This document shows positions 8,810 to 54,945 of a DNA stretch of 64,000 bases, piece after piece (the first letter of the stretch is position 1; each line of letters starts with the position of its first letter). Under the pieces are notes generated by a model. It was not told where the DNA came from and did not search any database. It worked only from the letters and a program-made list of their open reading frames with translations. Made by a program: the position numbers and the translations under genes. This DNA comes from Streptomyces cinnamoneus (GTDB taxonomy: Bacteria; Actinomycetota; Actinomycetes; Streptomycetales; Streptomycetaceae), in the NCBI RefSeq assembly GCF_002939475.1, contig NZ_PKFQ01000001.1:2911001-2975000 (forward strand), given 5' to 3'.

Positions 8810-8825
8810 CCCCGGGACATACGAA

Positions 8826-8862
8826 AAGGTCCCGCCCGATCTGAACGATCGGACGGGACCTT
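8826..8862. terminator. bidirectional terminator
   Basis: A 15-bp stem with one mismatch (AAGGTCCCG paired with CGGGACCTT at the base, extended by CCGAT/ATCGG) separates the lasso operon from the convergent tRNA-Ala gene. Confidence 0.8.
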
Positions 8863-8873
8863 CTCATGCGCGG

Positions 8874-8947
8874 TGGACCTGAGGGGATTTGAACCCCTGA
8901 CCCCCTCGATGCGAACGAGGTGCGCTACCGGACTGCGCCACAGGCCC
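8874..8947 (-). tRNA. tRNA-Ala (anticodon CGC)
   Basis: The minus strand folds as a full cloverleaf of 74 bases. The acceptor stem GGGCCTG pairs with CAGGTCC (one G-T). The anticodon arm is CCTCG-TTCGCAT-CGAGG, which gives anticodon CGC. The T arm is GGGGTTCAAATCCCC. Discriminator is A and the 3' CCA is not fully encoded (CC only). Confidence 0.92.
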
Positions 8948-9042
8948 TTGCAACGAGTGAAACTCTAGCATCCCCATCGGGCTGCCCGGAAATCCGCTCC
9001 CCTCCGCCGCCGCTGGTCAGCGCGGCGGGCGGCTCCCGCAGG

Positions 9043-14348: not shown

Positions 14349-14972
14349 ATGACCCGAGACGAGGAGTTTGCACGAACAGTGATCGAATACGACGTGAACA
14401 AGCGCGAGTTGCGCCGTCTTCTCCTCTCGGCGAGATCACGGCTGACCCCGGACGACGTCGCCGCCGCACAGACCGCGTTGGGCCGCCGGGCCCTGGAGCT
14501 GCCGGAGCTGGCGGGGGCGCGCACCGTGGCCGCGTACGTCTCGGTCGGCAGCGAGCCGGGCACCCGGGCCCTGCTGGAGACGCTGCGCACCCGTGACGTC
14601 CGGGTCCTGCTGCCGGTCCTGCTGCCCGACAACGATCTCGACTGGGGACTCTACCGGGGCGCGGGCCACCTCGTGCGCGCGGCCAAGGGCCTGCTGGAGC
14701 CGGACGGCGAACGGCTCGGCCCGGGGGCGGTGACCGGGGCGGACGCCGTGCTGCTGCCCGGGCTGGCCGTGGACGGCCGCGGACTGCGGCTGGGGCGCGG
14801 CGGCGGTTCGTACGACCGGGTGCTGGCCCGCCTGGACCGGGCGGGGGCCGACCCCGCGCGGATCGTGCTCCTCTACGACGACGAGGTGGTCGCGCGGGTC
14901 CCGGAGGAACCGCACGACCACCCCGTGCACGCGGTGGTCACCCCTGGCGGGGTGCGCCGTTTCGGACCCTGA
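14349..14972 (+). CDS. 5-formyltetrahydrofolate cyclo-ligase
   Basis: The protein (207 residues from ATG 14349) has the family's ATP/folate motif LRLGRGGGSYDRVLARL near residue 150 and the N-terminal KRELRRLLLSARSRL. It converts 5-formyl-THF to 5,10-methenyl-THF with ATP hydrolysis. The start is uncertain: GTG 14334, ATG 14349 and GTG 14381 are all possible, and the last would remove a stretch that has no counterpart in most homologues. It is convergent with the following amidase gene with only 3 bases between stops. Confidence 0.92.
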   Translation: MTRDEEFARTVIEYDVNKRELRRLLLSARSRLTPDDVAAAQTALGRRALELPELAGARTVAAYVSVGSEPGTRALLETLRTRDVRVLLPVLLPDNDLDWGLYRGAGHLVRAAKGLLEPDGERLGPGAVTGADAVLLPGLAVDGRGLRLGRGGGSYDRVLARLDRAGADPARIVLLYDDEVVARVPEEPHDHPVHAVVTPGGVRRFGP

Positions 14973-14975
14973 GGG

Positions 14976-40846: not shown

Positions 40847-41221
40847 TCAGGCCCACTCCGCCTCGCGCCGCAGTTCGCTGTCCTCCACCTCGCCCGTGTT
40901 CAGGGCGCCCTCCGGGTCGAGCAGGACGACGTCGCAGCCCTCGGGGGTCACCGGGCGGTGTTCGACGCCCCGGGGGACGACGAACATCTCGCCGGGGCCC
41001 AGGCGCACGCTCTCGCGGTCGCGCAGCTCTATCGTCAGCTCGCCGCGCAGGACGAGGAACATCTCGTCGCCCTCGGCGTGGCTGTGCCAGACGAACTCGC
41101 CCTTGAACTTGGAGACCTTCAGTTCGAGGCCGTTGACCTCCATGACGGTCCTGGGCGACCAGTGGTCCTCGATGCCGGCGAGCTTCTCCGACAGGTTGAC
41201 CGGGGTGTCGGGACGGGCCAT
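40847..41221 (-). CDS. small cupin-domain protein
   Basis: The 124-residue protein is a single cupin barrel. Metal ligands of motif 1 are visible (VWHSHAEGDEMFLVLRGEL, i.e. HxH-x-(D/E)-x-E type) and motif 2 has GEMFVVPRGVEHRPV. Such small cupins act as isomerases, dioxygenases or binding proteins. As the last gene of the leftward biosynthetic operon it could tailor or protect the product. Its own reaction cannot be predicted. It starts 87 bases after the thioesterase. Confidence 0.85.
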   Translation of the reverse strand: MARPDTPVNLSEKLAGIEDHWSPRTVMEVNGLELKVSKFKGEFVWHSHAEGDEMFLVLRGELTIELRDRESVRLGPGEMFVVPRGVEHRPVTPEGCDVVLLDPEGALNTGEVEDSELRREAEWA

Positions 41222-41308
41222 GACGTTCGTTTCTCCTCAGGTCCTCGGGTGCGCGGGTCAGGCGGGTGCTCGGGGCACGGGGGTGACCGGGCCAGGCGGG
41301 TGACCGGG

Positions 41309-42067
41309 TCAGCGGGCGACAACGGTCGCCAGGTGCTTGGACACCACACCCACCACATCCGCCTCATTGATACGCAGGAAGTGATGCCCGCCCGGGTAGA
41401 CCCGAACCTCGCAGTCGGCGGTGGTCAGCTCCTGCCAGAGGCTGAGGTCCGCCGTGGGGCAGGTGTGGTCGCTGTCGCCGCCGCAGGCCGTGACGGGTGC
41501 CTGGATGCGGGGCAGCGACTCCCGGTCGGGCCGGTAGGCGTCCAGCAGGCGCAGATCGGCCCGGAGCGGCGGGAGGATCAGCGGCAGCAGCTGGACGTGG
41601 TCGTAGACCTCCGCGTCGGGGCCGCCCAGCGCCCGCATGGAGGCGACCAGCTCCTCGTCCGGCAACAGGTGGCGCTTCTCCCCGTGCACGTGGTGGGGGG
41701 CCGTCCTGGCGGAGACGAAGACGCGGGTGACCACGACCGCGTGGTCCCGCTCCAGCCGCCGCGCCACCTCGTAGGCCAGGCCCGAGCCCATGCTGTGGCC
41801 GAAGAACGTCAGCGGCAGGTCGAGGTGGGGGGCGAGTTCCTCCGCCACCCGGTCGGCCGTCTCCGCCATGTCCTCGATGCACGGCTCGGCCATGCGTTCC
41901 TGGCGGCCGGGGTACTGCACGACGAGCGTCTCGACTCCCGGCGGCAGCCGGGCCGGCCAGCCCTGGAAGGTGGCGGCCGTCCCGCCGGCGTGGGGGAAGC
42001 ACACCAGCCGGGCGAGGGCGTCGGGGCCCTGTGCGGGGTGGCGCCGGAGCCACGGTTTCGATCCCAT
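41309..42067 (-). CDS. type II thioesterase (GrsT-like)
   Basis: The 252-residue protein is an alpha/beta hydrolase of the TEII class. RLVCFPHAGGTAATFQGW is the usual start, Ser92 lies in GHSMGSG, Asp near CGGDSDHTC and His in GGHHFLRINE complete the triad. In NRPS systems TEIIs remove wrongly loaded acyl groups; with stand-alone A, PCP and iron-oxygenase proteins they release the finished amino acid, as described for CytC4 and similar proteins. It lies 31 bases after the aminotransferase. Confidence 0.92.
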   Translation of the reverse strand: MGSKPWLRRHPAQGPDALARLVCFPHAGGTAATFQGWPARLPPGVETLVVQYPGRQERMAEPCIEDMAETADRVAEELAPHLDLPLTFFGHSMGSGLAYEVARRLERDHAVVVTRVFVSARTAPHHVHGEKRHLLPDEELVASMRALGGPDAEVYDHVQLLPLILPPLRADLRLLDAYRPDRESLPRIQAPVTACGGDSDHTCPTADLSLWQELTTADCEVRVYPGGHHFLRINEADVVGVVSKHLATVVAR

Positions 42068-42098
42068 GGTGGGGGTTTCCTTTCGTCAGCCGCCGTCG

Positions 42099-43385
42099 CT
42101 AGGAGGCCGCGCGCCGCTGTTCCGTCAGGGTCGCGCCGAGCCGTGCGACGCCCGTCGCGATGACGTCCTCCGGGCCGCTGAGGCTGAGCCGGACGCAGCG
42201 GGTGCCGTGGTCCGCGAGGAAGGGCGTGGTGAGCGGGCCCACGAAGAAGTGGCGGCCCGGCACGATGAAGACGTTCTTGCTCTTGAGGGCGCGGTAGGCC
42301 ACGAGGTCGTCGAACCAGTCGTGGTCGATCCACAGCCAGCAGAACATGCCGCCGTCGCTGCGGTGCAGCCGCCAGTCGACGGACTCCGGCAGGTGCTCGC
42401 GCAGCAGCTCTTCGGCGAGGCGCCGCTTGGCCCGGTAGTAGGGCTTGATCACCTTGGCGGTCAGGACGTCGATGCCGCCGCTGTCCAGCGCGCGGGCCGC
42501 GGCGTTCTGCATGAGCTGCGGGGCGTGCAGGGCGGCGTTGGCGGTGAAGGACACCATGGCGTCGATCGCGTCGGCGGGGCCGATGGCGAAGCCGATGCGC
42601 TCGCCGGGCATCCCCGCCTTGGAGAAGGTGAAGCAGTTGACGACGTTGGGGTGCAGCACCGGCGTGAGCGGGGTGTCCACGACACCGGGGAACGGCTGCC
42701 CGTAGGCGTGGTCGACGATGAGCGGGATGTCGCGCTCGGCGGCGATCGCGACGAGCCCGTCCAGCTCGGCGGCGTCGAGGCTGCGGCCTGTGGGGTTGCT
42801 CGGGCTCGACAGCAGCATCGCGCCGCCCGTCGCCGTCGCCCGGCGCACCGCCGCGAGGTCCACGCCGTAGCGGAACTGCCGGCCGTCGCCCACGGTCCCG
42901 TCCTCCACGGTCACCACGGGCTCCACGCCGACGATGCCGCGCTCGGCGATGCTCAGGCCCTGGTAGCCGGTGTAGTCGGGCACGCAGGGCAGCACCAGCT
43001 TCCGTTCCCCCCGGTCCGTCGGCCCGGTGTAGGCGTTGACGGCCATGAAGGCGAGCATCTGGCTGCCGGGGCCGACGAGGACGTTCTCGGGGCCGATCCC
43101 CCACCCGTACGCGGCGTTGAAGTAGCGGACGATGGCGCCGACGAGCGCGTTCGTGCCGCGCGAGGGGCCGTACTGGCCGCCGGCGCCGAAGAAGTCGTCC
43201 CGCACGCTCTCCTCGGCGAGGCGCCGCCAGGTGTCGACGACCTCGGGGATCATCGCCGGGTTGCCGGGGCTGAGGTTGAACCACGGGCCGTCCGACGGCT
43301 CGCCGACCGCGGCGGCGATGTCGTCCATGATGCTGCGGATGCCGGACAGGCGGGACATGCTCGTCCCCCAGGTGGAAAGCTGCAT
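42099..43385 (-). CDS. PLP aminotransferase, valine-pyruvate transaminase (AvtA)-like
   Basis: The 428-residue protein is a fold-type I aminotransferase. LVGPGSQMLAFMAVN binds the cofactor phosphate, LLSSPSNPTGRSL and the helix DIPLIVDHAYGQ supply Asn and Asp contacts, and Lys256 (CFTFSKAGMPGERIG) forms the Schiff base. The start MSRLSGIRSIMDDI and the GAGGQYGPSRG segment are AvtA-like, so branched or linear aliphatic 2-oxo acids are likely substrates. With the leuA in the same operon it could make a chain-extended amino acid. ATG 43385 or 43355 may be the start. Confidence 0.88.
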   Translation of the reverse strand: MQLSTWGTSMSRLSGIRSIMDDIAAAVGEPSDGPWFNLSPGNPAMIPEVVDTWRRLAEESVRDDFFGAGGQYGPSRGTNALVGAIVRYFNAAYGWGIGPENVLVGPGSQMLAFMAVNAYTGPTDRGERKLVLPCVPDYTGYQGLSIAERGIVGVEPVVTVEDGTVGDGRQFRYGVDLAAVRRATATGGAMLLSSPSNPTGRSLDAAELDGLVAIAAERDIPLIVDHAYGQPFPGVVDTPLTPVLHPNVVNCFTFSKAGMPGERIGFAIGPADAIDAMVSFTANAALHAPQLMQNAAARALDSGGIDVLTAKVIKPYYRAKRRLAEELLREHLPESVDWRLHRSDGGMFCWLWIDHDWFDDLVAYRALKSKNVFIVPGRHFFVGPLTTPFLADHGTRCVRLSLSGPEDVIATGVARLGATLTEQRRAAS

Positions 43386-43443
43386 GGGCGGATTTCCCCG
43401 ATCTCGGTGGGAGGGTCGCGGGCGGGACGTGCGGCGGGCGGGG

Positions 43444-43486
43444 CCCGTGGCGCCGGGCGACGGCTCGCGTCGTCCGGCGCCACGGG
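43444..43486 (-). terminator. strong hairpin inside the operon (after PCP)
   Basis: A 17-bp stem with one G-U (CCCGTGGCGCCGGGCGA and partner) and a 9-nt loop lies between the carrier protein stop and the aminotransferase start. It could cut transcription of the last three genes. Confidence 0.65.
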
Positions 43487-43501
43487 ATCTCCCGGAGATC
43501 G

Positions 43502-43729
43502 TCAGGCGACCTTCTGGAGCGAGGCGACGTGCGCGGAGATCGCCGAGACCGTCGCCTTGCGGAACAGCTCGTCCATCGGCACGTCGACGCCCAGCTCGTC
43601 GCTCAGCGCCTGCTGGATCCTCGTCATGATCAGCGAGTGGCCGCCCAGCTCGAAGAAGTCGTCGTCGTCGGAGAAGTCGTCCAGCTTGAGCTCACGGCTC
43701 CAGATGCCGTGAATCTGCTCTGTGATCAC
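43502..43729 (-). CDS. stand-alone peptidyl carrier protein
   Basis: The 75-residue protein starts at GTG 43729 behind AAAGGA. It is an acidic four-helix carrier: KLDDFSDDDDFFELGGHSLIM contains the phosphopantetheine Ser (GGHSL, residue 32), preceded by the D-x-F-F-E-L-G sequence typical of PCPs, and SDELGVDVPMDELFRKATVS follows. It would be loaded by the adenylation protein two genes upstream and modified on the carrier by the SyrB2-like enzyme. Confidence 0.93.
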   Translation of the reverse strand: MITEQIHGIWSRELKLDDFSDDDDFFELGGHSLIMTRIQQALSDELGVDVPMDELFRKATVSAISAHVASLQKVA

Positions 43730-43815
43730 CTTGCGGTCCTTTCTGGCTCTGTCGGTTCGGATCGTGCGGCCCGCGGCGCTGCGGGCCTTCGCCCAAGGCG
43801 CCTCAGCGGGCGTCG

Positions 43816-44757
43816 TCACGCACGGCGGAACTTCTCGCCGTGGTTGTTCTCCGTACGGATCCGGTGGTGGTCGAACTTGTTCTCGCCGGACACCAGGACG
43901 CTGCCGTACTCGGACAGGTCGAAGGTGGCCCCGTGCGCGGTGAAGGAGTCCTGGTCCGGGTAGACCCGCACGTGCGTCGGCACGTAGCGGCCGGCGATCG
44001 CGAAGCGGGTCTCGCGCTCGGTGAGGTTGGGCGTGGAGCCGTGCACGCACGAGGCCGTGAAGATGACGGCCTCGCCCGGCTGCATCTCCAGCTCGACGAC
44101 GTCCTCGGGCCGCGGCTCCCAGTCGGGGTCCACCGCGAAGTCCGAGAAGTCGTAGCCGAAGAAGCCGGTGTTCGCGTGCTGGACGTCGAAGTCGTCGCGG
44201 CCGGTCTGCGTCGCCTTGTGCTCGTCGAAGATCCACTCACGCTGCGAGCCGCGGACGAACTTCATGCAGGCGCGGTCCTTCGTGGCCGGCGTGAAGCAGG
44301 TCCACACGGTGATGTCGATGTACGCGTTCCACTCCGACGCGGTCGGCAGCAGCTGCGGCTTGCCGTTGGCGTAGCTGTAGTCGCGCACCTGGTGCCACTC
44401 GGTGGCCTTCGCGCCCGGGAACTTGGGGAACCACTCCGTGCGCCAGCACAGGACGTCCGGGCCCAGGATCGCGTTGAGGTACTTGACGATGGTCGGGTGG
44501 GTGATGTGCCGCGTCAGCTCCGGGATGTCGAAGTGGCGGTCGTAGTTGACGCTGTTCTTGTACAGCGCCTTGTCGGTGATGTGGTTGTTGATCCGGATCT
44601 CCCGGATCAGCTCGGCTGCCTCCTCGGGCTCGTACAGCTTGATCGGGCCGATGAAGCCGTCGCGGCCGAACTGCTCGATGTCGCTCTTGATGTCGTCGGG
44701 GACGACCGCGTTGGCGGAGATCTGGGCGGCCGGAGTGGGTCGCTCGCTTGTGGTCAC
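43816..44757 (-). CDS. SyrB2-like iron/2-oxoglutarate halogenase-family enzyme with HxV metal site
   Basis: The 313-residue protein aligns well with the carrier-dependent halogenase SyrB2 as I remember it: NYDRHFDIPEL, ILGPDVLCWRTEWFPKFPG, TEWHQVRDYSYANGKPQ, GFFGYDF and GRYVPTHVRVYPD. His122 and His239 (CVHGSTPNL) are the iron ligands and Arg257 binds 2-oxoglutarate. The position that is Asp/Glu in hydroxylases and Ala or Gly in halogenases is Val124 here, so no carboxylate ligand is present. Halogenation of a PCP-bound aliphatic amino acid is therefore likely, but hydroxylation or another outcome is not excluded. The A, PCP and TEII genes beside it support work on a carrier protein. Confidence 0.88.
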   Translation of the reverse strand: MTTSERPTPAAQISANAVVPDDIKSDIEQFGRDGFIGPIKLYEPEEAAELIREIRINNHITDKALYKNSVNYDRHFDIPELTRHITHPTIVKYLNAILGPDVLCWRTEWFPKFPGAKATEWHQVRDYSYANGKPQLLPTASEWNAYIDITVWTCFTPATKDRACMKFVRGSQREWIFDEHKATQTGRDDFDVQHANTGFFGYDFSDFAVDPDWEPRPEDVVELEMQPGEAVIFTASCVHGSTPNLTERETRFAIAGRYVPTHVRVYPDQDSFTAHGATFDLSEYGSVLVSGENKFDHHRIRTENNHGEKFRRA

Positions 44758-44792
44758 GCTGGGTTCACTCCTCGGTTCGGGTCAGTGGGAGG

Positions 44793-46418
44793 TCACTGGG
44801 AGGTGGCGGGGTGGTCGACGGACGCTGCCAGCGCCTTGCGGTCGACCTTTCCGTTGGGGTTCAGGGGGAAGGCCGTCAGCTCGACGACCTCCTGCGGCAC
44901 CATGTTCCGCGGCAGCGAACCGAGCAGTTCGGCGCGGAGCGCGCGGGGGTCGAGGGGTGCGGCGGCGGGGATGACGAAGGCCACCAGGCGGGCCTCACCG
45001 GCCCCGTCCGGCGGGGCGAGGACCACGACGTCCTCCACCCGGGGGTTGGCGCGCACACCGTGCTCGACGTCGCCGAGGTCGATGCGCATGCCGCGGATCT
45101 TCACCTGGGCGTCGACCCGCCCGACGACGACCAGGTCGCCGGACGCGGTGGCGTGACCGCGGTCGCCGGTCCGGTACAGCCGTACGCGCTCACCGCCGGT
45201 GTCGGCCGTCATGAAGCGCTCCATGTCGGCGGGTGAGGCGCCGAGGTACCCCGCGCCGACGCTGGTGCCGGAGATGCAGATCTCCCCGGTCTCGCCGTCG
45301 GGCACCTCGGTGAGGACGCCGTCGCGCTCCTCCATCAGGCGGATCGCGGTGTTGTAGACGGGCCGGCCCACGGGGGTGGCGCCCGCCCGGTAGCGGGGGT
45401 AGTCGTGGAGCGGGTACGAGGAGGCCACGTCCGTGCACTCGGCGACCCCGTACTGGTGCAGCAGGGTGCAGGCGTTGCCCTCCTGGGTGGCCCACTCCTC
45501 GACGCGCGGGGTCGACAGGGGCTCGCCGCCGATGAAGACGTAGTCGACACCGGCCAGGGCCGCGCACCTGGGGCCCCCTTCGGTGCCGGCCGCCTTCGCC
45601 GCCCTGGCCGCCTGGGCCATGTCCCGCTCGATCAACAGGTAGAGCGTGCTGGGCGCGCAGTGCAGGGTGGCGACGCCGCGCTCGGCGATGACCCGGTATG
45701 CCATGTTCACGTCGAAGCTGCGACTGGGCAGCAGGTGCAGCGGAGCTCCGGTGAACAGCGGTGCCATCAGGCCGCGTTGGCTGATGTCGAAGCCGAAGGA
45801 GCTGACGCTCAGGCTGCTGGAGCGCTCGTCCAGCCCGTATTCCAGGGCGAGCCAGTTGAGGAGGTTGTACCAGCCCTCGTGGCGGACCGCGACGGCCTTG
45901 GGCGTCCCGGTGGAGCCCGAGGTGAACACCGCGTAGCACAGGTCGTCGCCGGTGGTGTCGGTCTGCGGGTCGACGGCGGGCAGGAGCGCCAGGCGGGGCG
46001 CGAGGGCCTCGATGTCGAGCACCTTGGTGTGGGCGTGCCCGATGAGGCTCTCGGTGGCGGGGGCGACCACGGTGTACTCGAGCTGGTCGAGGTTCGACAG
46101 CATCAGGTCGAGGCGCTCTTGCGGGTACGTCGGGTCGAGGGGGGCGTACGCGGCACCGGACTTGAGGACGCCCAGGATGGCGACCATCAGCTCGGGGGTG
46201 CGGTCCAGGCACACGCCGACGACCGAGCCGCGGCCGATGTCGAGCGAGAGCAGGTGGTGGGCGAACCGGTTGGCCCGCGTATTGAGTTCGGCGTAGCTGA
46301 TCTGCTCGTCCCCGCAGGTCAGGGCGGTGCCGAGCGGGTTCCTATGGGCGTGGGCCTCGAAGACGCGGTGCACGACCGTGTCGTCGGGAAGCGGCGCACG
46401 CAGACCGTGCAGAGTCAT
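44793..46418 (-). CDS. stand-alone amino acid adenylation protein
   Basis: The 541-residue protein is one NRPS A domain without attached C or T domains. Core motifs: A3 CYAVFTSGSTGTPKAVAVRH near residue 165, A4/A5 region SSFGFDISQRGLM and QYGVAECTD (in place of YGPTE), A7 YRTGDRG, A8 GRVDAQVKIRGMRIDLGDVE, and A10 NPNGKVDRKAL with the catalytic Lys. A tentative specificity line by alignment to GrsA is D-I-R-H-F-G-Q-D-V-K, which I do not recognise. It activates an amino acid and loads the neighbouring PCP. ATG 46418 abuts the upstream gene's stop. Confidence 0.92.
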   Translation of the reverse strand: MTLHGLRAPLPDDTVVHRVFEAHAHRNPLGTALTCGDEQISYAELNTRANRFAHHLLSLDIGRGSVVGVCLDRTPELMVAILGVLKSGAAYAPLDPTYPQERLDLMLSNLDQLEYTVVAPATESLIGHAHTKVLDIEALAPRLALLPAVDPQTDTTGDDLCYAVFTSGSTGTPKAVAVRHEGWYNLLNWLALEYGLDERSSSLSVSSFGFDISQRGLMAPLFTGAPLHLLPSRSFDVNMAYRVIAERGVATLHCAPSTLYLLIERDMAQAARAAKAAGTEGGPRCAALAGVDYVFIGGEPLSTPRVEEWATQEGNACTLLHQYGVAECTDVASSYPLHDYPRYRAGATPVGRPVYNTAIRLMEERDGVLTEVPDGETGEICISGTSVGAGYLGASPADMERFMTADTGGERVRLYRTGDRGHATASGDLVVVGRVDAQVKIRGMRIDLGDVEHGVRANPRVEDVVVLAPPDGAGEARLVAFVIPAAAPLDPRALRAELLGSLPRNMVPQEVVELTAFPLNPNGKVDRKALAASVDHPATSQ

Positions 46419-47120
46419 TCAGAGGGTCCTCTCCGGCACCAGCACCGGCGGCAGGGGCCAGGCCAGCGTGGGGCGAAAGTTCTCGACGAGTACGCTTTCG
46501 TCGAATTCCATGAGGTAGCGGTAGAAGGGCCGGGCCGAGCGGAACGAGCGCGACGCCAGCTCGGAGACCCGCAGCAGCAGCGGGGGCGGCGGCCCGCCGG
46601 CCGGCGCGCCCGCGGGGACCGGGGCGAACCCGAGGCGCTCCAGCGCGGGCACGGCGCGGCAGTCGGCGGCGTCCACCACGACGTGGCTCATGTCGTTGAG
46701 GACGCTCCACTGCAGACAGGCCTTGACCATGCCGCCGACCACGCCGAACGGCAGCTCGGGCCAGGTGCCGCCTTGGCAGGCGTGCCGCAGGACGAGGCGC
46801 CGGAACTGCACGAGGCGCCGGTTCTTGCGCAGGGCCCCGGTCAGCACGTCCCGCGCGTCGACGGGCAGGCCCAGCGGCGAGTCCACCACCAGCTCGGCGG
46901 CGGCGACCACGTCACCGTCGATGACGGTGAGCATGTGCACCGCGTGCGGTACGAACACGTCGTCCCGGTCGTCCTGCCCGGCCAGGGGGTGTCCGAGCAG
47001 GTCCTTCCGCGTCGTCGCCCGCATGCGGGCGATGCTGTGGAAGTCGAGCGCGCTGCGCGCCGTGTACACGAAGCAGTCGCGCTCTACGTCTTTCGGCGTC
47101 TCAACGAATGCGAAGTCCAT
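46419..47120 (-). CDS. FeeM/LuxI-like GNAT-fold N-acyltransferase
   Basis: The 233-residue protein has the GNAT-type order seen in N-acyl amino acid synthases: IARMRATTRKDLLGHPL, HMLTVIDGDVVAAAELVVD, RRLVQFRRLVLRHACQGG, LQWSVLNDMSHVVVDAAD and VPALERLGFAPVP. FeeM and LuxI enzymes transfer acyl groups from acyl-ACP to amino acids or SAM. The similarity is by pattern, not by a single motif, so another GNAT role is possible. It lies between leuA and the adenylation gene, abutting the latter (stop and start share the boundary 46418/46419). Confidence 0.65.
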   Translation of the reverse strand: MDFAFVETPKDVERDCFVYTARSALDFHSIARMRATTRKDLLGHPLAGQDDRDDVFVPHAVHMLTVIDGDVVAAAELVVDSPLGLPVDARDVLTGALRKNRRLVQFRRLVLRHACQGGTWPELPFGVVGGMVKACLQWSVLNDMSHVVVDAADCRAVPALERLGFAPVPAGAPAGGPPPPLLLRVSELASRSFRSARPFYRYLMEFDESVLVENFRPTLAWPLPPVLVPERTL

Positions 47121-47194
47121 CTCGCCTGTCCATCTCCGCCTGGGGAAGGGAACTGCCTCGGAGCGTGTGCCGCCGGTGTGCGGGGGCGGGGTGT

Positions 47195-48991
47195 CTAGCG
47201 GGCGAGCCCCCGGTTGACCGCCGAGAGGACGGAGGCGACCAGCGCCGCGTCGGCGGAGGGGTCGATCCCCGCCCCGTGGACGGTGGTTCCGGCGACGATG
47301 ACCTCCGCGTAGGCGGCGGTGCGCTCGCCGTGGGCGTCGGCCACGGCGTGGTGCGAGACGGCGGTCAGCCGCACGTCGGGGCCCAGGCCGGCCAGGGCCG
47401 CGGCGAAGGCGTCGGCGGCGCCGGCGCCCCGGCCCTCGACGGCCGTCTCGCGGCCGTCCTCCCGGACGACCGAGGCCCGGATCCAGGTCGTGTCCACGCC
47501 CTCGGTCTCCGTCCGGAACTCCTTGAGCAGCAGGACCGGTGCGGGCTGCTCCAGGTATTCGCGGCTGAAGACGGCCCACAGGTCGCGCGAGGTCAGCTCG
47601 ACGCCTTCCGCGTCGGCCACCCGCTGCACGGTGCGCGCCAGCTCGACGCGCAGTCCGCGCGGCACGTCCAGGCCGTGGACGCTCTTGAGGATGTGCGCGA
47701 TGCCGCCCTTGCCGGACTGGCTGTTGACCCGCACCACCGACTCGTACGTCCGGCCGACGTCCTTGGGGTCGATCGGCAGGTAGGGCACGTCCCAGGGGAC
47801 CTCCCGCGGCGCCGTGCCGGCCGCCTTCGCCTGCGCTTCGACGGCCGCCAGGCCCTTGGCGATGGCGTCCTGGTGGGTGCCGGAGAACGCGGTGTACACC
47901 AGGTCGCCCGCGTAGGGGTGGCGGGTGTGCACCGGGATCTGGTTGCAGTGCTCGACGGTGGTGCGGATCTCGTCGATGTCGGAGAAGTCGAGCTGGGGGT
48001 CGACGCCCTGGCTGAAGAGGTTCATCGCCATGGTCGCGAGGCACACGTTGCCGGTCCGCTCGCCGTTGCCGAAGAGCGTGCCCTCGACGCGGTCGGCGCC
48101 TGCCATCAGGGCGAGTTCGGCGGAGGCCACGGCGGTGCCGCGGTCGTTGTGCGGGTGGACCGACAGGATGACCGACTCGCGGTTGTCGAGGTTGCGGTGC
48201 ATCCACTCGACCTGGTCGGCGAAGACGTTGGGGGTGTCCGTCTCGACCGTGGTCGGCAGGTTGAGCGTCACCGGCCGGTCGGGGGAGGCGTCCCAGACGG
48301 CGGCCACGGTGTTGGAGAGGCCGAGGGCGAACTCCGGCTCCGTGACGTTGAAGGTCTCCGGCGAGTACTCGAACCGCAGCCGCGAGCCCTTGGCCGCGTC
48401 CGCGAGCCGTGCCACCCGCTCGGCGGAGGCGACGGCCATCCGCTCGACCTCCTCGGGCGTCATCGAGAAGACGACCTCCCGCCACAGGCAGGCCGTGGCG
48501 TGGCAGAGGTGGACCACCGCCTGGTCCGCGCCCTCGACGGCCTCGAAGGTGCGGTCGATCAGCTCGGGGCGGGCGGGGGTGAAGACCGAGATGGTGACGT
48601 CGTCGGGGATGCGGTCCCGGGTGATCAGTTCGCGGACGAACGAGAAGTCCGCGTCGCTGGCCGAGGGGTAGCCGACCTCGATCTCCTTGAAGCCCATCCG
48701 GACCAGGAGGTCGAACATGCGGCCCTTGCGGCCGGAGTCCATGGGGTTGGCCAGGGACTGGTTGCCGTCCCGCAGGTCGACCGAGGCCCACAGGGGTGCG
48801 CGGTCGAGCTGCCGGGCGGGCCACAGGCGCTCGGCGGGTGCCTCCGGCAGCCTGGGCCCGGTACGGACGTAGCGGTGGACGGGCATCGAGGACGCCCGCT
48901 GGGTGTTCCACCACGGCTGGCCGGGACGGGACGGGCCCACGGGTGGGCGCAGCCGGGATTCAGCGGGCGGGAACGGGGGTGTCTGGGGCAT
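47195..48991 (-). CDS. leuA: 2-isopropylmalate synthase (pathway-associated copy)
   Basis: The 598-residue protein has a full LeuA layout: catalytic TIM barrel with DLRDGNQ (residues 72-78), SVHPHNDRGTAVA (metal His pair) and GNGERTGN, then linker and a C-terminal regulatory LeuA_dimer domain. It condenses acetyl-CoA with a 2-oxo acid. Its place at the head of an operon with A, PCP, iron-enzyme and aminotransferase genes suggests that it extends a 2-oxo acid for the product, or renews leucine in the presence of an antimetabolite. GGGAGG precedes ATG 48991. A SARP-type promoter lies upstream. Confidence 0.92.
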   Translation of the reverse strand: MPQTPPFPPAESRLRPPVGPSRPGQPWWNTQRASSMPVHRYVRTGPRLPEAPAERLWPARQLDRAPLWASVDLRDGNQSLANPMDSGRKGRMFDLLVRMGFKEIEVGYPSASDADFSFVRELITRDRIPDDVTISVFTPARPELIDRTFEAVEGADQAVVHLCHATACLWREVVFSMTPEEVERMAVASAERVARLADAAKGSRLRFEYSPETFNVTEPEFALGLSNTVAAVWDASPDRPVTLNLPTTVETDTPNVFADQVEWMHRNLDNRESVILSVHPHNDRGTAVASAELALMAGADRVEGTLFGNGERTGNVCLATMAMNLFSQGVDPQLDFSDIDEIRTTVEHCNQIPVHTRHPYAGDLVYTAFSGTHQDAIAKGLAAVEAQAKAAGTAPREVPWDVPYLPIDPKDVGRTYESVVRVNSQSGKGGIAHILKSVHGLDVPRGLRVELARTVQRVADAEGVELTSRDLWAVFSREYLEQPAPVLLLKEFRTETEGVDTTWIRASVVREDGRETAVEGRGAGAADAFAAALAGLGPDVRLTAVSHHAVADAHGERTAAYAEVIVAGTTVHGAGIDPSADAALVASVLSAVNRGLAR

Positions 48992-49149: not shown

Positions 49150-50466
49150 TCATCCCCGTTCCGTCCCTGCGGCGGCCTCGGGCGCCGAGGACGGCGACGT
49201 CACGGGCTCGGGGGCGGGCTTCGGCGCCGCGGCGGCCGGCACGGGCTCCTCCGCGCCGGCGTCCTCCCGCGTGCCCTCGCGGACCAGGTTGAGCAGGGGG
49301 CCGGTCATGGCCGTGGTGACCACCGCCATCACGATCATGATCGAGTAGAAGCGCTCGTCGATGAGGTGCATCTGGAGCCCCACCGTGACGATGACGATCT
49401 CGGTCAGGCCGCGGGTGTTCATCAGCACCGCGATGGGCAGCGCGACGCGGTGCCCCGTGCCGGAGACCCGTGCCCCCGCGTAGGCGCCCACCGCCTTGGA
49501 CGCGACCGCCACCACGATCACGGCCAGGAGCGTGCCGAGGGTGCCCGCGCCGAAGCCGGAGAGGTCGACCTTCGTGCCCGCCACGATGAAGTACAGCGGC
49601 AGCAGGAAGTGCGAGCCCGTGTTCTCCATCTGCTCGATCAGCCGGGCCCGCAGCCCTTCGGGGCCCGCCTTGGGCATGACGGCGCCGAACGCGAAGGCGC
49701 CGAAGATGAAGTGCACGCCCATCCACTCGGTGGCCGCGCAGGACAGCATCAGCCCGACGACCAGGGCCGGGAACAGCGCGGCCGGCATCACGTCCCCCCG
49801 CCCGGCCCCCTGGGTCAGGCGCCGGAAGAGGGGACGCACGACGACCACCAGGAGCAGGGCGTAGACGGGCAGGAGCATCACGTGCCACTGCCCCGACGCC
49901 CCGCAGAAGGCGACGACGGCGGCCAGGGCGATCCACGCCGCCAGGTCGCCGACCGCGGCCGCGGCCAGGGCGATCCCGCCCAGCGGCTTCCTGTTGAGTC
50001 CGCGGTCGGTGAGGATCCGCGCCAGCACGGGGAAGGCGGTCACGGACATGGCGACGCCGAGGAACAGCACGAAGCCGGTGCGGTCACCGGGCGCGTACCG
50101 CCCGGCCAGCGGCAGCGCCAGCAGCGTGCCCGCCGTCAGCGGCACCACGACCGAGCCCGTCGCCAGGGTCAGCGCGGCCCGCGTCCGGCCGCGCAGCAGG
50201 GCGAAGTCGATCTCATATCCGACGGTGAACATGAAGACGGCCAGGCCGATGTTGGCCAGGCCCTCGAGTAAGGGCCGCACGGTGCCCGGGATGATGTGCT
50301 GGCTCACCGACGCGGTCAGCACGGTGGGGCTGGCGAGGATTCCGGCGAAGATCTCGCCGACCACCGGCGGCTGCCCGACGCGGCGCGCCAGCGCGCCACC
50401 GGTCTGGGCGGCGGCCAGGGCGATGGCGAGGGCGATGAAGAAGTCCGTCAAGAGATGCCCGGTCAT
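49150..50466 (-). CDS. CPA2-family cation:proton antiporter
   Basis: The 438-residue protein starts at ATG 50466 with GAGGA 5 bases before. It has about 12-13 membrane segments and the CPA2 segments QPPVVGEIFAGILASPTVL and GDLAAWIALAAVVAF (ion-binding Asp), and MNTRGLTEIVIVTVGL. A Pro/Ala/Glu-rich tail of about 45 residues follows. It lies between the SARP gene and leuA on the same strand. In antibiotic clusters such antiporters are sometimes linked to export or self-protection, but a general ion role is possible. Confidence 0.88.
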   Translation of the reverse strand: MTGHLLTDFFIALAIALAAAQTGGALARRVGQPPVVGEIFAGILASPTVLTASVSQHIIPGTVRPLLEGLANIGLAVFMFTVGYEIDFALLRGRTRAALTLATGSVVVPLTAGTLLALPLAGRYAPGDRTGFVLFLGVAMSVTAFPVLARILTDRGLNRKPLGGIALAAAAVGDLAAWIALAAVVAFCGASGQWHVMLLPVYALLLVVVVRPLFRRLTQGAGRGDVMPAALFPALVVGLMLSCAATEWMGVHFIFGAFAFGAVMPKAGPEGLRARLIEQMENTGSHFLLPLYFIVAGTKVDLSGFGAGTLGTLLAVIVVAVASKAVGAYAGARVSGTGHRVALPIAVLMNTRGLTEIVIVTVGLQMHLIDERFYSIMIVMAVVTTAMTGPLLNLVREGTREDAGAEEPVPAAAAPKPAPEPVTSPSSAPEAAAGTERG

Positions 50467-50537
50467 GTCGTTCCTCAAGAATCACAAGATCGATGGGGGT
50501 GGGGAGAAAAGAGGTCGAGAGCCCTGCGGCACGCGGG

Positions 50538-50562: not shown

Positions 50563-52536
50563 TCAGAAGGCGCAGGGGTCGCCGGCGTAGGAGAGGATCA
50601 GCTGCCGGTCCATGTAGAAGTCGTGCAGGCCCTTCAGGGCGTTCTCGCGGTCCTCGGGGGTGTCGACCACCCGGGACAGCTGCGCGCAGTAGGCCTGCAC
50701 CAGGCCGTGGACGCGGTAGTGGCCGGCCTCGGGCTGCTGGAGGAGGTGCTCGTCCACCAGCCCTTCCAGCAGTTCCTCGGTGCGCGGCACGGGCAGCCCG
50801 GCCAGGGCCGCGGCGCCGGGGGCGTTGACCACCGGGGTGGCGACGAGGCCGAGCAGCCGCAGCAGCCGCTGCTGCTCGGGGTGGAGGGCGAGGTAGGAGC
50901 AGTCGATGCGGGACGACACCCCGCCGTCCTCGGCCCGCAGTTCGGTCAGGCGGCGGCCGGGCTCGGCGAGGCGGTCGGCGAGGTAGCCCACGCTCCACGT
51001 CGGCCGGTGCCGCAGCCGCGCGGCGGCCGCCGCGATGGCGAGCGGGTGGTGGCCGCAGTGCCGGAGCAGGGTGTCCACGTCCTCCGCCGTGGCGTCCCGG
51101 CCGGGCCCGCCCGCAGCGTCCGCGCCGGCGGCCCGGTCCGGGACCAGGCGCCGGAAGAGCCGGCGCGCCTCGTCGAGCGGGAGGGGGTCGAGGAAGTACG
51201 GGCGGGCCGTGGGCAGTCCGGTCAGGCTGCGCCGGCTCGTGACGATCGTGAGGCAGCCCGGGCCGTCGGCCGGCAGCGCGCGGATCTGGTCGGTGCTCGC
51301 CACGTTGTCGAGGACGAGCAGGACGCGCCGCCCCGCGAGCCAGCCGCGCCAGAGCCCGGCGGCCTCGGCGGCGTCGAGGCGCTCGCTCACCGGGACGCCC
51401 ACGGCCCGCAGCAGGCGCACCGGCCCGGCGGCCGGGGGCAGCGCCGCCCCGTCGGAGCTGTGTCCGCGCAGGTCGAGGAAGAGGCAGCCGTCGGGGTAGC
51501 GGTGGGCGAGCCGGTGGGCGGCGTGCACGGCCAGGGCCGTCTTGCCCACCCCGGCCATGCCCTCGATCACGGCCACCCGGCCCGCCCCGGCACCGGTGCG
51601 CTCACCCCGGCCGGCCCCGTCACCCCGGTCGTCCCCGTCGGCGAAGTCGAGCAGGAGGCGCAACGTCTCACCGCGGCCGGTGAAGTGCGGTACGCCGCCG
51701 GGCAGGTTGCCGGGGGCGGCGGCCGGGGCGGGGAGCGGCACCTCGGCGGGCGCCGGCGCGGGGGACGGCCGGGACGCGGCGGGCGCGGGGGCGCCCGTGT
51801 CGTCGGCCAGCATCTGCTGGTGGAGTTCCTGCAGTTCGGGGCCGGGGTCGAGGCCCAGGGTCTCCGCGAGGTCGCGACGGGTCCGCTCGTAGACGGCGAA
51901 GGCGCGGGCCCGGGCCCCCGAGCGGTAGAGGGCCAGGACGAGCTGTCCGACGAGGCGCTCGCGCAGCGGGTGGTCGGCCACGGCGCCGGTCAGTTCGCCG
52001 ATGAGGGCGGTGTGCCGGCCGCGCGCCAGCTCCAGGCCGACGCATTCCTCCAGGACCGTCAGCCGCTGCTCCTCCAGGCCGGCCGCCTGCGCCCGCAGGC
52101 CCGGCCGGTCCAGCCCCGACAGCACCGGGCCACGCCAGAGGGCGAGCGCCGCGCGTAACTCCGTCACCGCGTCGTCGGGGCGGTCCTGCTCCATGCGGCG
52201 GCGGGCCCGGGCGCTGTGTTCCTGGAAGGTCCGCAGGTCGAGGGTGGCGTCGGCGATGTCCAGCCGGTAGCCGTCCGCCTCGGGGACGATGGCGGCGCCC
52301 GTGGCAGAGAGCAGGGTCCGCAGCTCGGAGACGGCGTTGCGGATCTGTTTGCGGGCGGTGACCGGCGGCCGCTGCTCCCAGACGACGTCGGCCAGGCGCG
52401 CCAGGGAGACCCGCCGGCCGTTGGACAACAGGAGCGCGCCGAGGATGGTTTGCTGCTTCACTCCGCGCAGCGGGATCCGCTGCCCGGAGACCGATAATGC
52501 GAGGGGACCTAGAACCCGAAATTCTGCAACAGGCAT
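50563..52536 (-). CDS. SARP-family pathway regulator with NB-ARC domain
   Basis: The 657-residue protein starts at ATG 52536. Residues 1-95 are the OmpR-like winged helix of SARPs (FRVLGPLALSVSGQRIPLRG, then RKQIRNAVSELRTLL), residues about 100-245 the BTAD domain (LDLRTFQEHSARARRRMEQ and AFAVYERTRRDLAETLGLDPG), and from about 290 an NB-ARC STAND ATPase with P-loop GMAGVGKTAL near residue 325 and LLVLDNV as Walker B. It lacks the long TPR tail of AfsR. It is the obvious activator of the heptamer promoter in front of leuA. It is divergent from lysR. Confidence 0.92.
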   Translation of the reverse strand: MPVAEFRVLGPLALSVSGQRIPLRGVKQQTILGALLLSNGRRVSLARLADVVWEQRPPVTARKQIRNAVSELRTLLSATGAAIVPEADGYRLDIADATLDLRTFQEHSARARRRMEQDRPDDAVTELRAALALWRGPVLSGLDRPGLRAQAAGLEEQRLTVLEECVGLELARGRHTALIGELTGAVADHPLRERLVGQLVLALYRSGARARAFAVYERTRRDLAETLGLDPGPELQELHQQMLADDTGAPAPAASRPSPAPAPAEVPLPAPAAAPGNLPGGVPHFTGRGETLRLLLDFADGDDRGDGAGRGERTGAGAGRVAVIEGMAGVGKTALAVHAAHRLAHRYPDGCLFLDLRGHSSDGAALPPAAGPVRLLRAVGVPVSERLDAAEAAGLWRGWLAGRRVLLVLDNVASTDQIRALPADGPGCLTIVTSRRSLTGLPTARPYFLDPLPLDEARRLFRRLVPDRAAGADAAGGPGRDATAEDVDTLLRHCGHHPLAIAAAAARLRHRPTWSVGYLADRLAEPGRRLTELRAEDGGVSSRIDCSYLALHPEQQRLLRLLGLVATPVVNAPGAAALAGLPVPRTEELLEGLVDEHLLQQPEAGHYRVHGLVQAYCAQLSRVVDTPEDRENALKGLHDFYMDRQLILSYAGDPCAF

Positions 52537-52921
52537 ACGCGCGCCAACCTTCGAGAACTCTGTGGGAGTTGGTTCCAAGCGACGGCGGCCGCGGGGGTCG
52601 CCGGACGGCACGGATTCGAGCCGATGAGAGGGGCGAAGCGTCACGACGCCGGCGCCGGACCCGGAAGGCGGAGGAACGAAGGGGGCGGCGGGCGCGCGGG
52701 GAACCACGGCCGGGACGGCCGGCCGGGTGGAGCGGGCGGTGCGGGGACGGTGCGGCGGTGCAGAGGTGCGTGCGCAACGTCAGTTCGCTAGGCGACTGGT
52801 GGGCCTTCGCGCCGGATCCACCGCCCCGGTGGGGACGGTCTTCGCCGCTGACAGCACGACCCTGCCGGAAGCCAGACTTCCAGTCCAAGGCTTATTTGGT
52901 ATGCGCGTATACCTTTTGCAC
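52537..52921. other. divergent SARP/lysR intergenic region (385 bases)
   Basis: No gene is supported here. It must hold both promoters; I see the LysR dyad at its right end and no convincing heptamer array for the SARP itself. Confidence 0.5.
52898..52913 (+). promoter_or_regulatory. LysR-type dyad next to lysR start
   Basis: Arms GGTAT and ATACC with a 6-base centre (GCGCGT) lie 8 bases before the lysR ATG. A T-N11-A type dyad at this place suggests autoregulation. Confidence 0.5.
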
Positions 52922-53848
52922 ATGGTGACCCTGCGGCAGCTTCAATACATGATCACGATCGTGGAGGAAGGATCCTTCACACGTGCCGCCCGGCGACTGC
53001 ACATCTCCCAACCGGCTCTTTCACGACAACTCCAGGCGCTGGAACGTTTCTGTGGAGGTTCTCTGGTCGAGCGGGACGCCCGTCCCCTGCGACTGACCCC
53101 CATGGGGCAGGCGATACACCCCCACGCCCGCGCGGCGCTGGCCGAGGCGGACCGCATCCGCCTCGCCGCCGCCACGGCGGCCGGCGGACCCGGCGGCGAA
53201 CTGCGGCTGGCCACCTTGGACTCGCTCACGCTCGGCGTCCTCCCGCCCGCGTTGAGCGCCTGGCACGAGGGCAACCCGGCGATGGAGGTCCGGCTGGCCG
53301 AATACCGACGCGCCGAGGAGCTGATGGCCGCGCTCGGCGAGGGCCGGGCCGACGTCGCCGTGGGCCCGGCCCTCGACCAGTGGTACGGCCCCCGGCAGTT
53401 GCTCGGGGTGGCGGAGTTCGTACTGGTCCTGCCACCGGACGACCCCGTGGCGGCGGCCCACCCCGGGCCGAGCGTTCCGCTCGCCGCCTTCACCGACCGG
53501 GCCTGGGTGCACTTCGCGCCCGCCAACGCGCTCAGTGCCGTGCTCAACGAGGCCTGCGCAGAGGCCGGTTTCACGCCACGGACCGCCGTGCGCACCGAGC
53601 AGAGCGTGGCCGCGCCCCTGCTGGCGGCGTCCGGCCTCGGCCCGACGCTCGTACCGACGTACGTGCTCCCTGCCCACTTCCCCGGCCGGGTCATGCGGCC
53701 GGAGCCGCCGGTGAGACAGCAGCTCTTCGTCTGCACGACCGCCTTACCCGGTCCCACGGTCACCGACTTCGTCGAGGTGCTCGTCCGGCACGCCCGCGTC
53801 GCGCCGCACACGAGCCTGGACGACCTCGGCACTGCGAGCGGCCGTTGA
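52922..53848 (+). CDS. LysR-family transcriptional regulator
   Basis: The 308-residue protein has the LysR winged helix at its N-terminus (LRQLQYMITIVEEGSFTRAA, then ISQPALSRQLQALERFCGG) and a periplasmic-binding-like effector domain. ATG 52922 gives the standard LysR start; ATG 52901 is in frame but lies in the dyad. It is divergent from the SARP gene and may link the cluster to a metabolite such as an amino acid. The right arm of the shared terminator lies just after its stop. Confidence 0.9.
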   Translation: MVTLRQLQYMITIVEEGSFTRAARRLHISQPALSRQLQALERFCGGSLVERDARPLRLTPMGQAIHPHARAALAEADRIRLAAATAAGGPGGELRLATLDSLTLGVLPPALSAWHEGNPAMEVRLAEYRRAEELMAALGEGRADVAVGPALDQWYGPRQLLGVAEFVLVLPPDDPVAAAHPGPSVPLAAFTDRAWVHFAPANALSAVLNEACAEAGFTPRTAVRTEQSVAAPLLAASGLGPTLVPTYVLPAHFPGRVMRPEPPVRQQLFVCTTALPGPTVTDFVEVLVRHARVAPHTSLDDLGTASGR

Positions 53849-53937: not shown

Positions 53938-54945
53938 TCAGCTGGCCCCCGCGTCCCGGGGAGCGGCGACGGCCGGGGCGGCGGCCGCGGGCGCCGCGGC
54001 GGTCCGCCCTCCGGGCCGGCGCAGGAAGCGCCCCTGCGTCACGGCCAGCAGGGCACCCACCAGCATGATCACGCCACCCACCACCTGGACCGCCGTGAAC
54101 GACTCGTCCAGGAAGATCCCGGAACTGGTGACGCCGAAGACCGGCACGGCGAACATCACGACGGTGGCGGTGGAGGGGCTCACGCTGCGCAGGCCGCGGT
54201 AGAAGCACAGGTAGGCGATGGCGGTGGGTCCTATCGCCAGGTACACCACGTTGGCCCAGACGCCGCCCGACAGACCGCCCCAGTCCACGTCGGGCACGGA
54301 CGGCACGGCCAGCACCACCAGTCCCAGCGCTCCGGCGACCGTGCCGTAGGTGGTGGCCCGCAGCGGCTCCATGCCCGCCAGGACGCGCTTGGAGGTGATG
54401 CTGTACGCGGCCCAGGCCGCCGCGCCGAGGAGGTAGACGGCGTCGCCCAGCAGGCGCTTGCCGCTCACCCCGCCGCCGCCGTCACCGATGCCCAGGAAGA
54501 AGACGACCGCGCCGGCCACGCCCAGCACGAGGCCGACGACGCGGGCGGTGGAGGCGGTCTCCCGGCCCATGACCAGGAGGGCGCCCGTGGTCAGCACCGG
54601 GCTCAGCACCGGCACGATGATGCTGCCGTCGATGGACGGCGCCAGCGACAGCCCCCAGAAGAAGAAGACGTTGTAGGCGAACACGCCCAGCAGTCCGACG
54701 AGTCCGGCGCGGACGGCGTCCCGCCACGAGAACGACCCGATCCGGCCACCGCGGGCCGCCACGGCGAGGATGAGCACCAGGATGAGGGCGCCGCCGCCGA
54801 ACCGCAGCGCCGCCGCGACCTGGTGCGGCACGTGCCCCACGACCACCTTGGAGCTGGTGAAGGCGCTGCCGAAGAACGCCATGGTGGCCAGGAGGTAGAA
54901 GTAGGCGTCGACAGGATCGCGTCGTTGCTCGGTCGTCTCGGCCAC
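53938..54945 (-). CDS. EamA/DMT-family exporter
   Basis: The 335-residue protein has ten membrane segments in two EamA repeats (for example FGSAFTSSKVVVGHVP and AWAAYSITSKRVLAGMEP) and an Ala/Pro tail. DMT proteins of this type often export amino acids such as threonine, cysteine or analogues. As neighbour of the SARP/lysR pair it is a plausible exporter of the cluster's amino acid, but it lies outside the leuA operon. The link is inference. Confidence 0.88.
   Translation of the reverse strand: MAETTEQRRDPVDAYFYLLATMAFFGSAFTSSKVVVGHVPHQVAAALRFGGGALILVLILAVAARGGRIGSFSWRDAVRAGLVGLLGVFAYNVFFFWGLSLAPSIDGSIIVPVLSPVLTTGALLVMGRETASTARVVGLVLGVAGAVVFFLGIGDGGGGVSGKRLLGDAVYLLGAAAWAAYSITSKRVLAGMEPLRATTYGTVAGALGLVVLAVPSVPDVDWGGLSGGVWANVVYLAIGPTAIAYLCFYRGLRSVSPSTATVVMFAVPVFGVTSSGIFLDESFTAVQVVGGVIMLVGALLAVTQGRFLRRPGGRTAAAPAAAAPAVAAPRDAGAS

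Follow-up and report, generated by a model that had tools for sequence, protein, structure and literature searches.

A LeuA-containing cluster of Streptomyces cinnamoneus with a SyrB2-family enzyme of a separate clan, predicted to make a chain-extended, possibly chlorinated, leucine-type amino acid

The CytC1-C4 system of Streptomyces, which is of the gamma,gamma-dichloro-aminobutyrate or armentomycin type, comprises a free-standing adenylation (A) protein, a peptidyl carrier protein (PCP) and a thioesterase in addition to its iron enzyme. That enzyme, CytC3, is described in the accessible part of PMC8407142 as a SyrB2-family iron(II)/2-oxoglutarate (Fe/2OG) enzyme whose substrate is an aliphatic amino acid attached to a carrier. 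The same kit of A protein, PCP, thioesterase and SyrB2-family enzyme is encoded in a 64,000-nucleotide stretch of Streptomyces cinnamoneus contig NZ_PKFQ01000001.1 (positions 2,911,001 to 2,975,000; hereafter the window), together with a diverged LeuA-type 2-isopropylmalate synthase (IPMS), an AvtA-like aminotransferase, a FeeM-like protein and a single-domain cupin. We tentatively read this locus as a SARP-controlled cluster for a small, chain-extended, leucine-type non-protein free amino acid that is functionalised at a C-H bond while bound to the carrier, most likely by chlorination. The sequence lends good support to a leucine-type amino acid with an extended chain and to its C-H functionalisation on a carrier. 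We consider the chances that the iron step places chlorine to be about even and a hydroxyl group to be a less probable outcome; the readings weighed below overlap, and their probabilities do not sum to one.

Dedicated IPMS-like enzymes are already known from biosynthetic clusters. In mycoplanecin biosynthesis, MypK together with LeuB and LeuC of the host forms homoleucine in vitro, according to the available text of PMC10817943. MypK/MypL resemble the pathway proposed here in the dedicated IPMS-like enzyme, the recruitment of LeuB/LeuC from primary metabolism and the subsequent transaminase, but differ in feeding a nonribosomal peptide synthetase (NRPS), and that text as available describes no carrier-bound SyrB2-like step. 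The specificity of HphA, which acts on aromatic substrates in homophenylalanine formation and is 26-29% identical to three IPMSs, is set by A73, a residue at the position of a Leu in IPMS (PMC12961565, available part). Gamma-chloronorvaline, a chlorinated leucine analogue, is reported from Streptomyces griseosporeus (PMC8659048, available part). This is the type of product that the logic of the window could yield, with no evidence that the present cluster makes it; to our knowledge, no gene cluster has been assigned to gamma-chloronorvaline. The earlier note on this DNA did not recognise the combination of genes in the window, and no description of it was found among the matches listed in the open-licence PubMed Central (PMC) literature.

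In the proposed pathway, the diverged LeuA would join acetyl-CoA to a 2-oxo acid, probably not 2-oxoisovalerate, and the one-carbon extension would be completed by LeuCD and LeuB, supposedly drawn from primary metabolism in this host and encoded by the cluster itself in relatives. The AvtA-like enzyme would then aminate the extended 2-oxo acid, the A protein would load the amino acid onto the PCP, and the SyrB2-family enzyme, to judge by its family, would attack an unactivated C-H bond with Fe(II), 2OG and O2. Release by the thioesterase and export by the EamA protein would follow, leaving a free amino acid as the presumed product. The FeeM-like protein, where present, might N-acylate the amino acid, which is a guess, and the cation:proton antiporter encoded next to LeuA may assist the halogenase-type step or its product.

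All eight core genes (Table 1) are open and intact and lie on the minus strand, and the intergenic gaps of 0-116 bases make a single operon likely. Families were assigned from Pfam and NCBIfam profile scores against curated cut-offs. LeuA lies above the cut-off of the 2-isopropylmalate synthase model PRK03739 (769 bits, cut-off 455) and the iron enzyme above that of the 'chlorinating enzyme' model TIGR01762 (292 bits, cut-off 226.3). The A protein matches AMP-binding (230 bits) and AA-adenyl-dom (337 bits), and the PCP, thioesterase and cupin match PP-binding (66 bits), Thioesterase (154 bits) and Cupin_2 (49 bits), respectively. The core motifs of the A domain, the Ser motif of the PCP, the GHSMG of the thioesterase and the metal motif of the cupin are all present. 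The eight genes thus have the places and families given in the earlier note, with the FeeM-like protein and the aminotransferase (384 bits against a cut-off of 402 for the valine--pyruvate transaminase, or AvtA, equivalog) below their cut-offs. Loading on a free-standing PCP, an AvtA-like aminotransferase and a type II thioesterase are likewise supported, and no second A domain was found anywhere in the 64 kb window.

The order SARP regulator, antiporter, LeuA, (FeeM), A protein, iron enzyme, PCP, aminotransferase, thioesterase and cupin recurs in Streptomyces NBRC 110611 (locus L003), S. morookaense DSM 40503 (L004), NBC_01296 (L041, genome G247) and NBC_00069 (L051), with iron enzymes 85-91% identical to that of the window and with the cupin on the opposite strand in L003, L041 and L051. 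As this order is shared by L003, L041, L051 and, without FeeM, L004, the arrangement in the window does not reflect chance. An iron enzyme 85.7% identical to that of the window is plasmid-borne in four NBC strains. Iron enzymes of the window type (at least 68% identity) were found in three of 394 genomes of the family, namely the window genome, G247 and G026. The last belongs to another genus and has its cluster split into two runs (L042 and L046 are its two halves), LeuA and A lying 17-20 kb from the iron enzyme. As much of locus L055 (genome G785) as its contig covers is similar to the G026 form.

Besides the LeuA of the window, its genome encodes two further proteins with a LeuA_dimer domain, one a housekeeping LeuA and the other CimA-like. 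Each of the 21 genomes searched has one LeuA scoring 874-923 bits, compared with 769 bits for the window copy. Ten cluster LeuAs (window, L003, L004, L041, L051, L053, L054, L056, L057 and G026; those of L041 and L051 are identical) were compared with housekeeping copies in an alignment of 40 rows, using Mycobacterium tuberculosis (Mt) numbering. Phe143, Pro145, Cys169 and Cys174 occur in all ten cluster LeuAs and in none of the 21 housekeeping LeuAs, which have Leu143, Gln145 and Tyr169 throughout, and position 253 is Thr (eight) or Ser (two) in the cluster copies and Ala in all 21 housekeeping copies. The window LeuA therefore lacks the three residues used as the mark of a 2-oxoisovalerate pocket (Mt L143, Q145 and Y169), two of which, L143 and Y169, we take to contact the substrate. 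Positions 80, 81, 167, 216, 218, 250, 254, 285 and 287, inspected for their part in handling the metal and the acid, are unchanged. On the basis of these pocket changes, the enzyme probably uses a 2-oxo acid other than 2-oxoisovalerate. A73 of HphA would be equivalent to Mt L143, the position occupied by Phe in the window LeuA.

Phe143 and Pro145 also occur, together with Tyr169 and Ala253, in five second-copy LeuAs of another family (L123, L124, L125, L127 and L128), while a sixth (L129) retains Leu143, so that the Cys and Thr/Ser changes alone set the cluster clade apart. These second copies were considered as markers of the same pathway and rejected, as the five keep Tyr169 and Ala253 and the three neighbourhoods read (L130-L132) contain housekeeping-like genes, as judged by eye, and no A protein, PCP or iron enzyme.

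Further enzymes of chain extension are encoded in related clusters: L041, L046 and L051 each contain LeuC and a LeuD-LeuB fusion (LeuDB), and L003 has a LeuB at the end of its contig. Together with the diverged second LeuA and its changed pocket, the LeuC and LeuDB of three relatives strengthen the chain-extended amino acid that the earlier note proposed. The window genome contains separate LeuB and LeuD proteins elsewhere, with identities of 87% and 85%, respectively, to the fused protein of L041. In six genomes, the best LeuB and LeuD matches are 80-94% identical to L041 LeuDB, which should thus take leucine-type substrates. The LeuB of the L041 cluster is a 3-isopropylmalate dehydrogenase by profile (593 bits against a cut-off of 393), and this speaks for an alkyl side chain. 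The same score and identities disfavour a homocitrate-type extension of an acidic substrate, at which Arg239 and His278 of the A-domain code hint.

This code, extracted with GrsA as the reference, reads DIRHFGQDVK in all five orthologues read, that of the window included. Arg239 and His278 suggest a polar side chain, in conflict with the LeuB evidence. In mycoplanecin biosynthesis a code has proved misleading, as A6, predicted to activate ornithine, takes homoleucine (PMC10817943, available text). LeuA and A remain paired in all three loci that have no iron enzyme in the stretch examined (17-20 kb; L053, L056 and L057), and NRPS genes adjoin them there. Of the genomes concerned, G785 carries the enzyme elsewhere (L055), and no protein of G072 scores above the TIGR01762 cut-off. 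Because the pairing persists without an iron enzyme, LeuA and A look like a portable module that supplies a leucine-type amino acid; the LeuA-derived amino acid is very probably the substrate of the A protein.

The best solved relatives of the window iron enzyme are CytC3 (230 bits; 39% identity over 280 columns) and SyrB2 (215 bits), and its TIGR01762 score places it in a low-scoring group (285-312 bits) apart from one at 401-475 bits. Halogenases have Ala or Gly at the halide site, 'usually' so in the wording of PMC8407142 and likewise in PMC13244439, as far as these texts are available; the window enzyme has neither, its motif being H122-Q-V124 (HQV) instead of H-Q-A (HQA). In an alignment of 57 rows, 17 were HQV, 39 HQA (CytC3 included) and one HQG. 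The tree was built from 56 of these rows, L101 being dropped as the same locus as L054, and L051, whose enzyme shares the 85.7% identity of L041 to that of the window, was not entered. A branch with a support of 99 in the Shimodaira-Hasegawa-like approximate likelihood ratio test, at a place where long branches meet, separates its 16 HQV rows from the 39 Ala rows and the Gly row. Members of the HQV clan are found in Nostoc UHCC 0926 (L049, 52-55% identity), Burkholderia stagnalis (L050, 48-50%), Nonomuraea gerenzanensis (L061) and other actinobacterial clusters. The flanking NRPS of the Nostoc locus has three A domains with the code DFWNIGMVHK, which presumably stands for threonine, and one with another code. 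H122 and H239, presumably the iron-binding His residues, and T150, W152 and R257, presumably 2OG-binding, are invariant in 14 of 14 HQV rows. The HxD/E...H triad of PhyH-type hydroxylases is absent, with Val and no Asp/Glu at the triad position. By these comparisons the iron enzyme belongs to a separate, uncharacterised clan of the SyrB2 halogenase family, for which halogenation cannot be assumed.

The likeness to CytC3 and SyrB2 and the missing Asp/Glu at the triad position favour chlorination, and it is kept ahead mainly because CPA2-type antiporters are common to HQA and HQV loci. In tblastn searches (E <1e-20) within the fetched stretch of each locus, such antiporters were detected in 13 of 38 HQA loci and in nine of 19 HQV entries, or ten of 18 when counted per cluster, since one locus stands twice among the 19 entries (L054 and L101) and L042 is entered there without L046, the other half of its cluster. 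Ten whole genomes contain 20 such antiporters in total, about 0.0045 per 17 kb, and 13 of 38 is far over chance, although near-identical loci and stretches of unequal length inflate the nominal value of 1e-21. An antiporter is present at seven of eight clusters of the window type with an iron enzyme (L041 and L051 are near-identical; L054 is without); none was found in eight NRPS-type stretches without an iron enzyme (six genomes), in three LeuA stretches among housekeeping genes or in the three LeuA+A stretches without an iron enzyme. Two antiporter lineages occur in the window cluster type, one of them common to HQA loci including the CytC3-like L091-L093. This repeated recruitment suggests that the antiporter serves the chemistry, or the product, that HQA and HQV clusters share, and antiporters recurring at halogenase loci could be a clue to halide handling or product resistance. 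No description of the association was found among the matches listed in the open-licence PMC literature. Besides the window, antiporters lie beside SyrB2-family genes in L060, L063, L068, L075, L076, L081-L083, L085, L091-L093 and L099, and they stem from several lineages.

Several observations weigh against a chlorinated leucine-type product. LeuB, LeuC and LeuD are not encoded in the window, and the polar A code is odd for an aliphatic amino acid. The halogenase-linked antiporters are scattered in their tree and do not form one group, and their link to the iron enzymes is an association only, inflated by near-identical loci. In the iron enzymes themselves, CytC3 A120 is replaced by Val, T146 by Asp or Glu and T238 by Cys in 17 of 17 HQV rows and in none of the 39 HQA rows (35 of which have Leu at the T238 position), and S236 is replaced by Ala (15) or Glu (two) in the HQV rows and lost in no HQA row. 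The structure model of the window enzyme has a mean predicted local distance difference test (pLDDT) score of 55, falling below 50 over residues 102-146; it is unreliable at the active site, and that V124, D148 and C237 lie near the iron is guessed from where they stand in the sequence.

These substitutions bear on a quite possible alternative in which the pathway is the same and the HQV enzyme is not a halogenase, Val closing the halide site and the carrier-bound amino acid being hydroxylated or otherwise oxidised. The iron would then be held by two His and a water, as in human AspH, or by a relocated Asp/Glu. In favour of such a change, V, D/E, C and G are each fixed in 17 of 17 rows of a single clan with members from Actinomycetota, Nostoc and Burkholderia, the Gly at CytC3 A241 being found in only four of 39 HQA rows (Ala in 35). 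Moreover, the distal motif of the clan is C-x-H-G-S, compared with H-A-S in most HQA enzymes, and HGS is a motif of PhyH hydroxylases. In the available text on AspH, which shares the Fe/2OG chemistry, the two His and the lack of a triad carboxylate, the enzyme has two His and a water, apparently does not halogenate, and is less active without D721, a residue that destabilises this water (PMC13168262). AspH differs in acting on protein side chains and is likened here by description, not by sequence. Against this alternative, the closest solved proteins are halogenases, the triad carboxylate is lacking, and the antiporter association is common to the HQA halogenases.

In a somewhat more doubtful variant, the HQV clan, its halide site filled by Val and its invariant Asp/Glu and Cys probably turned towards the iron, would have given up halide binding and would perform a different carrier-bound C-H reaction, in this cluster on a chain-extended leucine homologue, yielding an antimetabolite directed at a tRNA synthetase. 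The reaction may be a hydroxylation at a two-His iron whose carboxylate has moved, a desaturation or the transfer of a ligand other than halide. The factors that make an Fe/2OG enzyme transfer halide or hydroxyl are not settled, and work on them has mostly examined or mutated one enzyme at a time. The HQV clan, with Val, an acid and Cys fixed around its metal motifs, would offer a natural comparison. The annotation 'chlorinating enzyme', which the NBC_00069 protein carries in public databases, may be wrong for the whole clan.

Less probable, and overlapping with the other readings, is a cluster whose output is a building block or an N-acyl amino acid and not a free amino acid, with the FeeM-like protein acylating it or an NRPS encoded elsewhere taking it up. 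Such a role would fit the LeuA and A genes beside NRPS genes in L053, L056 and L057, the related A protein ahead of NRPS genes in L047, L058 and L059, and the FeeM matches that accompany LeuA and A in five loci (L003, L041, L051, L053 and L054). It fits poorly with the single A domain of the window, with the type II thioesterase and EamA exporter, which suit a small product, and with the failure to find FeeM in L004 and L046. The earlier note counted the FeeM-like protein as part of the cluster; FeeM was not found in five of the ten related loci tested, including L004 and L046 (G026), one of the five (L055) ending at a contig end, and the protein is not core to the cluster type as judged by this distribution. 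The FeeM-like protein scores 21 bits against PF21926, under the gathering cut-off of 27, and three of five family members, the window included, match at E values up to 1. A four-sequence AlphaFold model (pLDDT 45) retrieved FeeM (2g0b) at ranks 1-4 of the PDB matches of Foldseek (E 8e-5), which makes an N-acyl amino acid synthase/GNAT-like fold likely, though not proved.

It is quite unlikely that the additional LeuA is mainly a feedback-resistant or self-resistance copy sustaining the flow to leucine during production of a leucine mimic, with no new substrate extended, a role compatible with either chemistry of the iron enzyme. In its favour, the regulatory domain has diverged (47 bits compared with 112 for the housekeeping copy), and a LeuRS-editing-like protein in the G026 cluster suggests a leucine mimic. 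Against it stand the catalytic-pocket changes in all ten cluster LeuAs and the persistence of LeuA with A where no tailoring enzyme was seen. The G026 protein (508 aa; L042:17236-18762) matches only the editing domain of LeuRS, with 48 bits to LeuRS 1h3n; a function in self-protection is plausible and would fit a leucine mimic. In the other half of the G026 cluster, an argG-related (argininosuccinate-synthase-related) protein and a BesD-type lysine 4-chlorinase with the motif HWG (455 bits against a cut-off of 450, and 420 bits to 6nie) are encoded at L046:2909-5035, within the run of genes that also holds LeuA, A, LeuC and LeuDB. Given these two proteins, the final product of G026 probably differs from that of the window form.

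An ordinary CytC (dichloro-aminobutyrate) system, the analogy drawn in the earlier note, keeps its kit of A protein, PCP, iron enzyme and thioesterase but not its lineage and is very improbable, as CytC3 lies among the HQA enzymes of the tree, close to L075 and L091-L094, its 39%-identical counterpart in the window has Val at the halide site, LeuA was not found in the five stretches of these CytC3-like loci, and the other tailoring partners differ.

The cluster probably extends beyond the eight genes to about position 54945, an extension that the earlier note missed along with the Val at the halide site. The SARP regulator, the antiporter and the EamA exporter would belong to it and the LysR regulator probably does too (Table 1).

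Table 1. Features of the cluster and its flanks (window positions).
Feature	Position	Strand	Details
LeuA-type 2-isopropylmalate synthase	47195..48991	-	598 aa; second copy in the window genome
Altered 2-oxo-acid pocket of LeuA			F137, P139, C163 and C168 = Mt L143, Q145, Y169 and I174
FeeM-like protein (N-acyl amino acid synthase/GNAT superfamily)	46419..47120	-	233 aa
Stand-alone adenylation (A) protein	44793..46418	-	541 aa; code DIRHFGQDVK
SyrB2-family Fe/2OG enzyme, HQV clan	43816..44757	-	313 aa; H122-Q-V124 ... H239
Codon V124	44386..44388	-	halide position (A120 in CytC3)
Codon D148	44314..44316	-	Asp/Glu invariant in HQV clan (T146 in CytC3)
Codon C237	44047..44049	-	invariant Cys, two residues ahead of the distal iron His
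Free-standing PCP	43502..43729	-	75 aa; GGHS motif
AvtA-like (valine--pyruvate transaminase family) aminotransferase	42099..43385	-	428 aa
Type II thioesterase	41309..42067	-	252 aa; GHSMG
Single-domain cupin	40847..41221	-	124 aa; metal motif intact; conserved partner
CPA2-type cation:proton antiporter	49150..50478	-	
SARP/AfsR-type (BTAD) regulator	50563..52707	-	conserved with the cluster
LysR regulator	52727..53848	+	LysR gene also upstream of the S. morookaense cluster (L004)
EamA/DMT exporter	53938..54945	-	48-80% identical homologues in L003, L004, L041, L042, L051, L054 and L055

Further observations concern individual relatives. In L054 (genome G817), the FeeM-like gene lies in two frames (8686-9071), only an 84-residue piece of LeuDB is called (14803-15057) and no antiporter was found in the cluster, so that this copy looks partly decayed. 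In L037 (36-16790), an HQV enzyme is encoded with an ornithine/lysine N-hydroxylase, a carbamoyltransferase, two ABC transporters, an A-PCP protein, a BBE-type oxidase and an Asp/Pro-hydroxylase-like protein, where acivicin-like chemistry is possible. The second match of L082 (G289:C2:179256-180128) is a SyrB2-family enzyme with HQG that falls inside the HQA clan.

A proteins 53-56% identical to that of the window are encoded in L047 (13746-17872), L058 and L059, where they precede NRPS genes; of 392 genomes of the genus, 27 encode such a protein. The L047 protein (code DLRHLGQDVK) adjoins an LmbU-type regulator, a PCP and a flavin-adenine-dinucleotide-binding oxidoreductase, and L058 has the same oxidoreductase (74%). 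In L056 (5243-7258) and L057 (12523-14613), a 196-aa protein with weak matches to Fe(II)-dependent dioxygenases (read in L056) is encoded with an MFS transporter; in the same stretches, LeuA and A accompany a condensation-A-PCP-thioesterase NRPS, which may make a small peptide containing the same amino acid.

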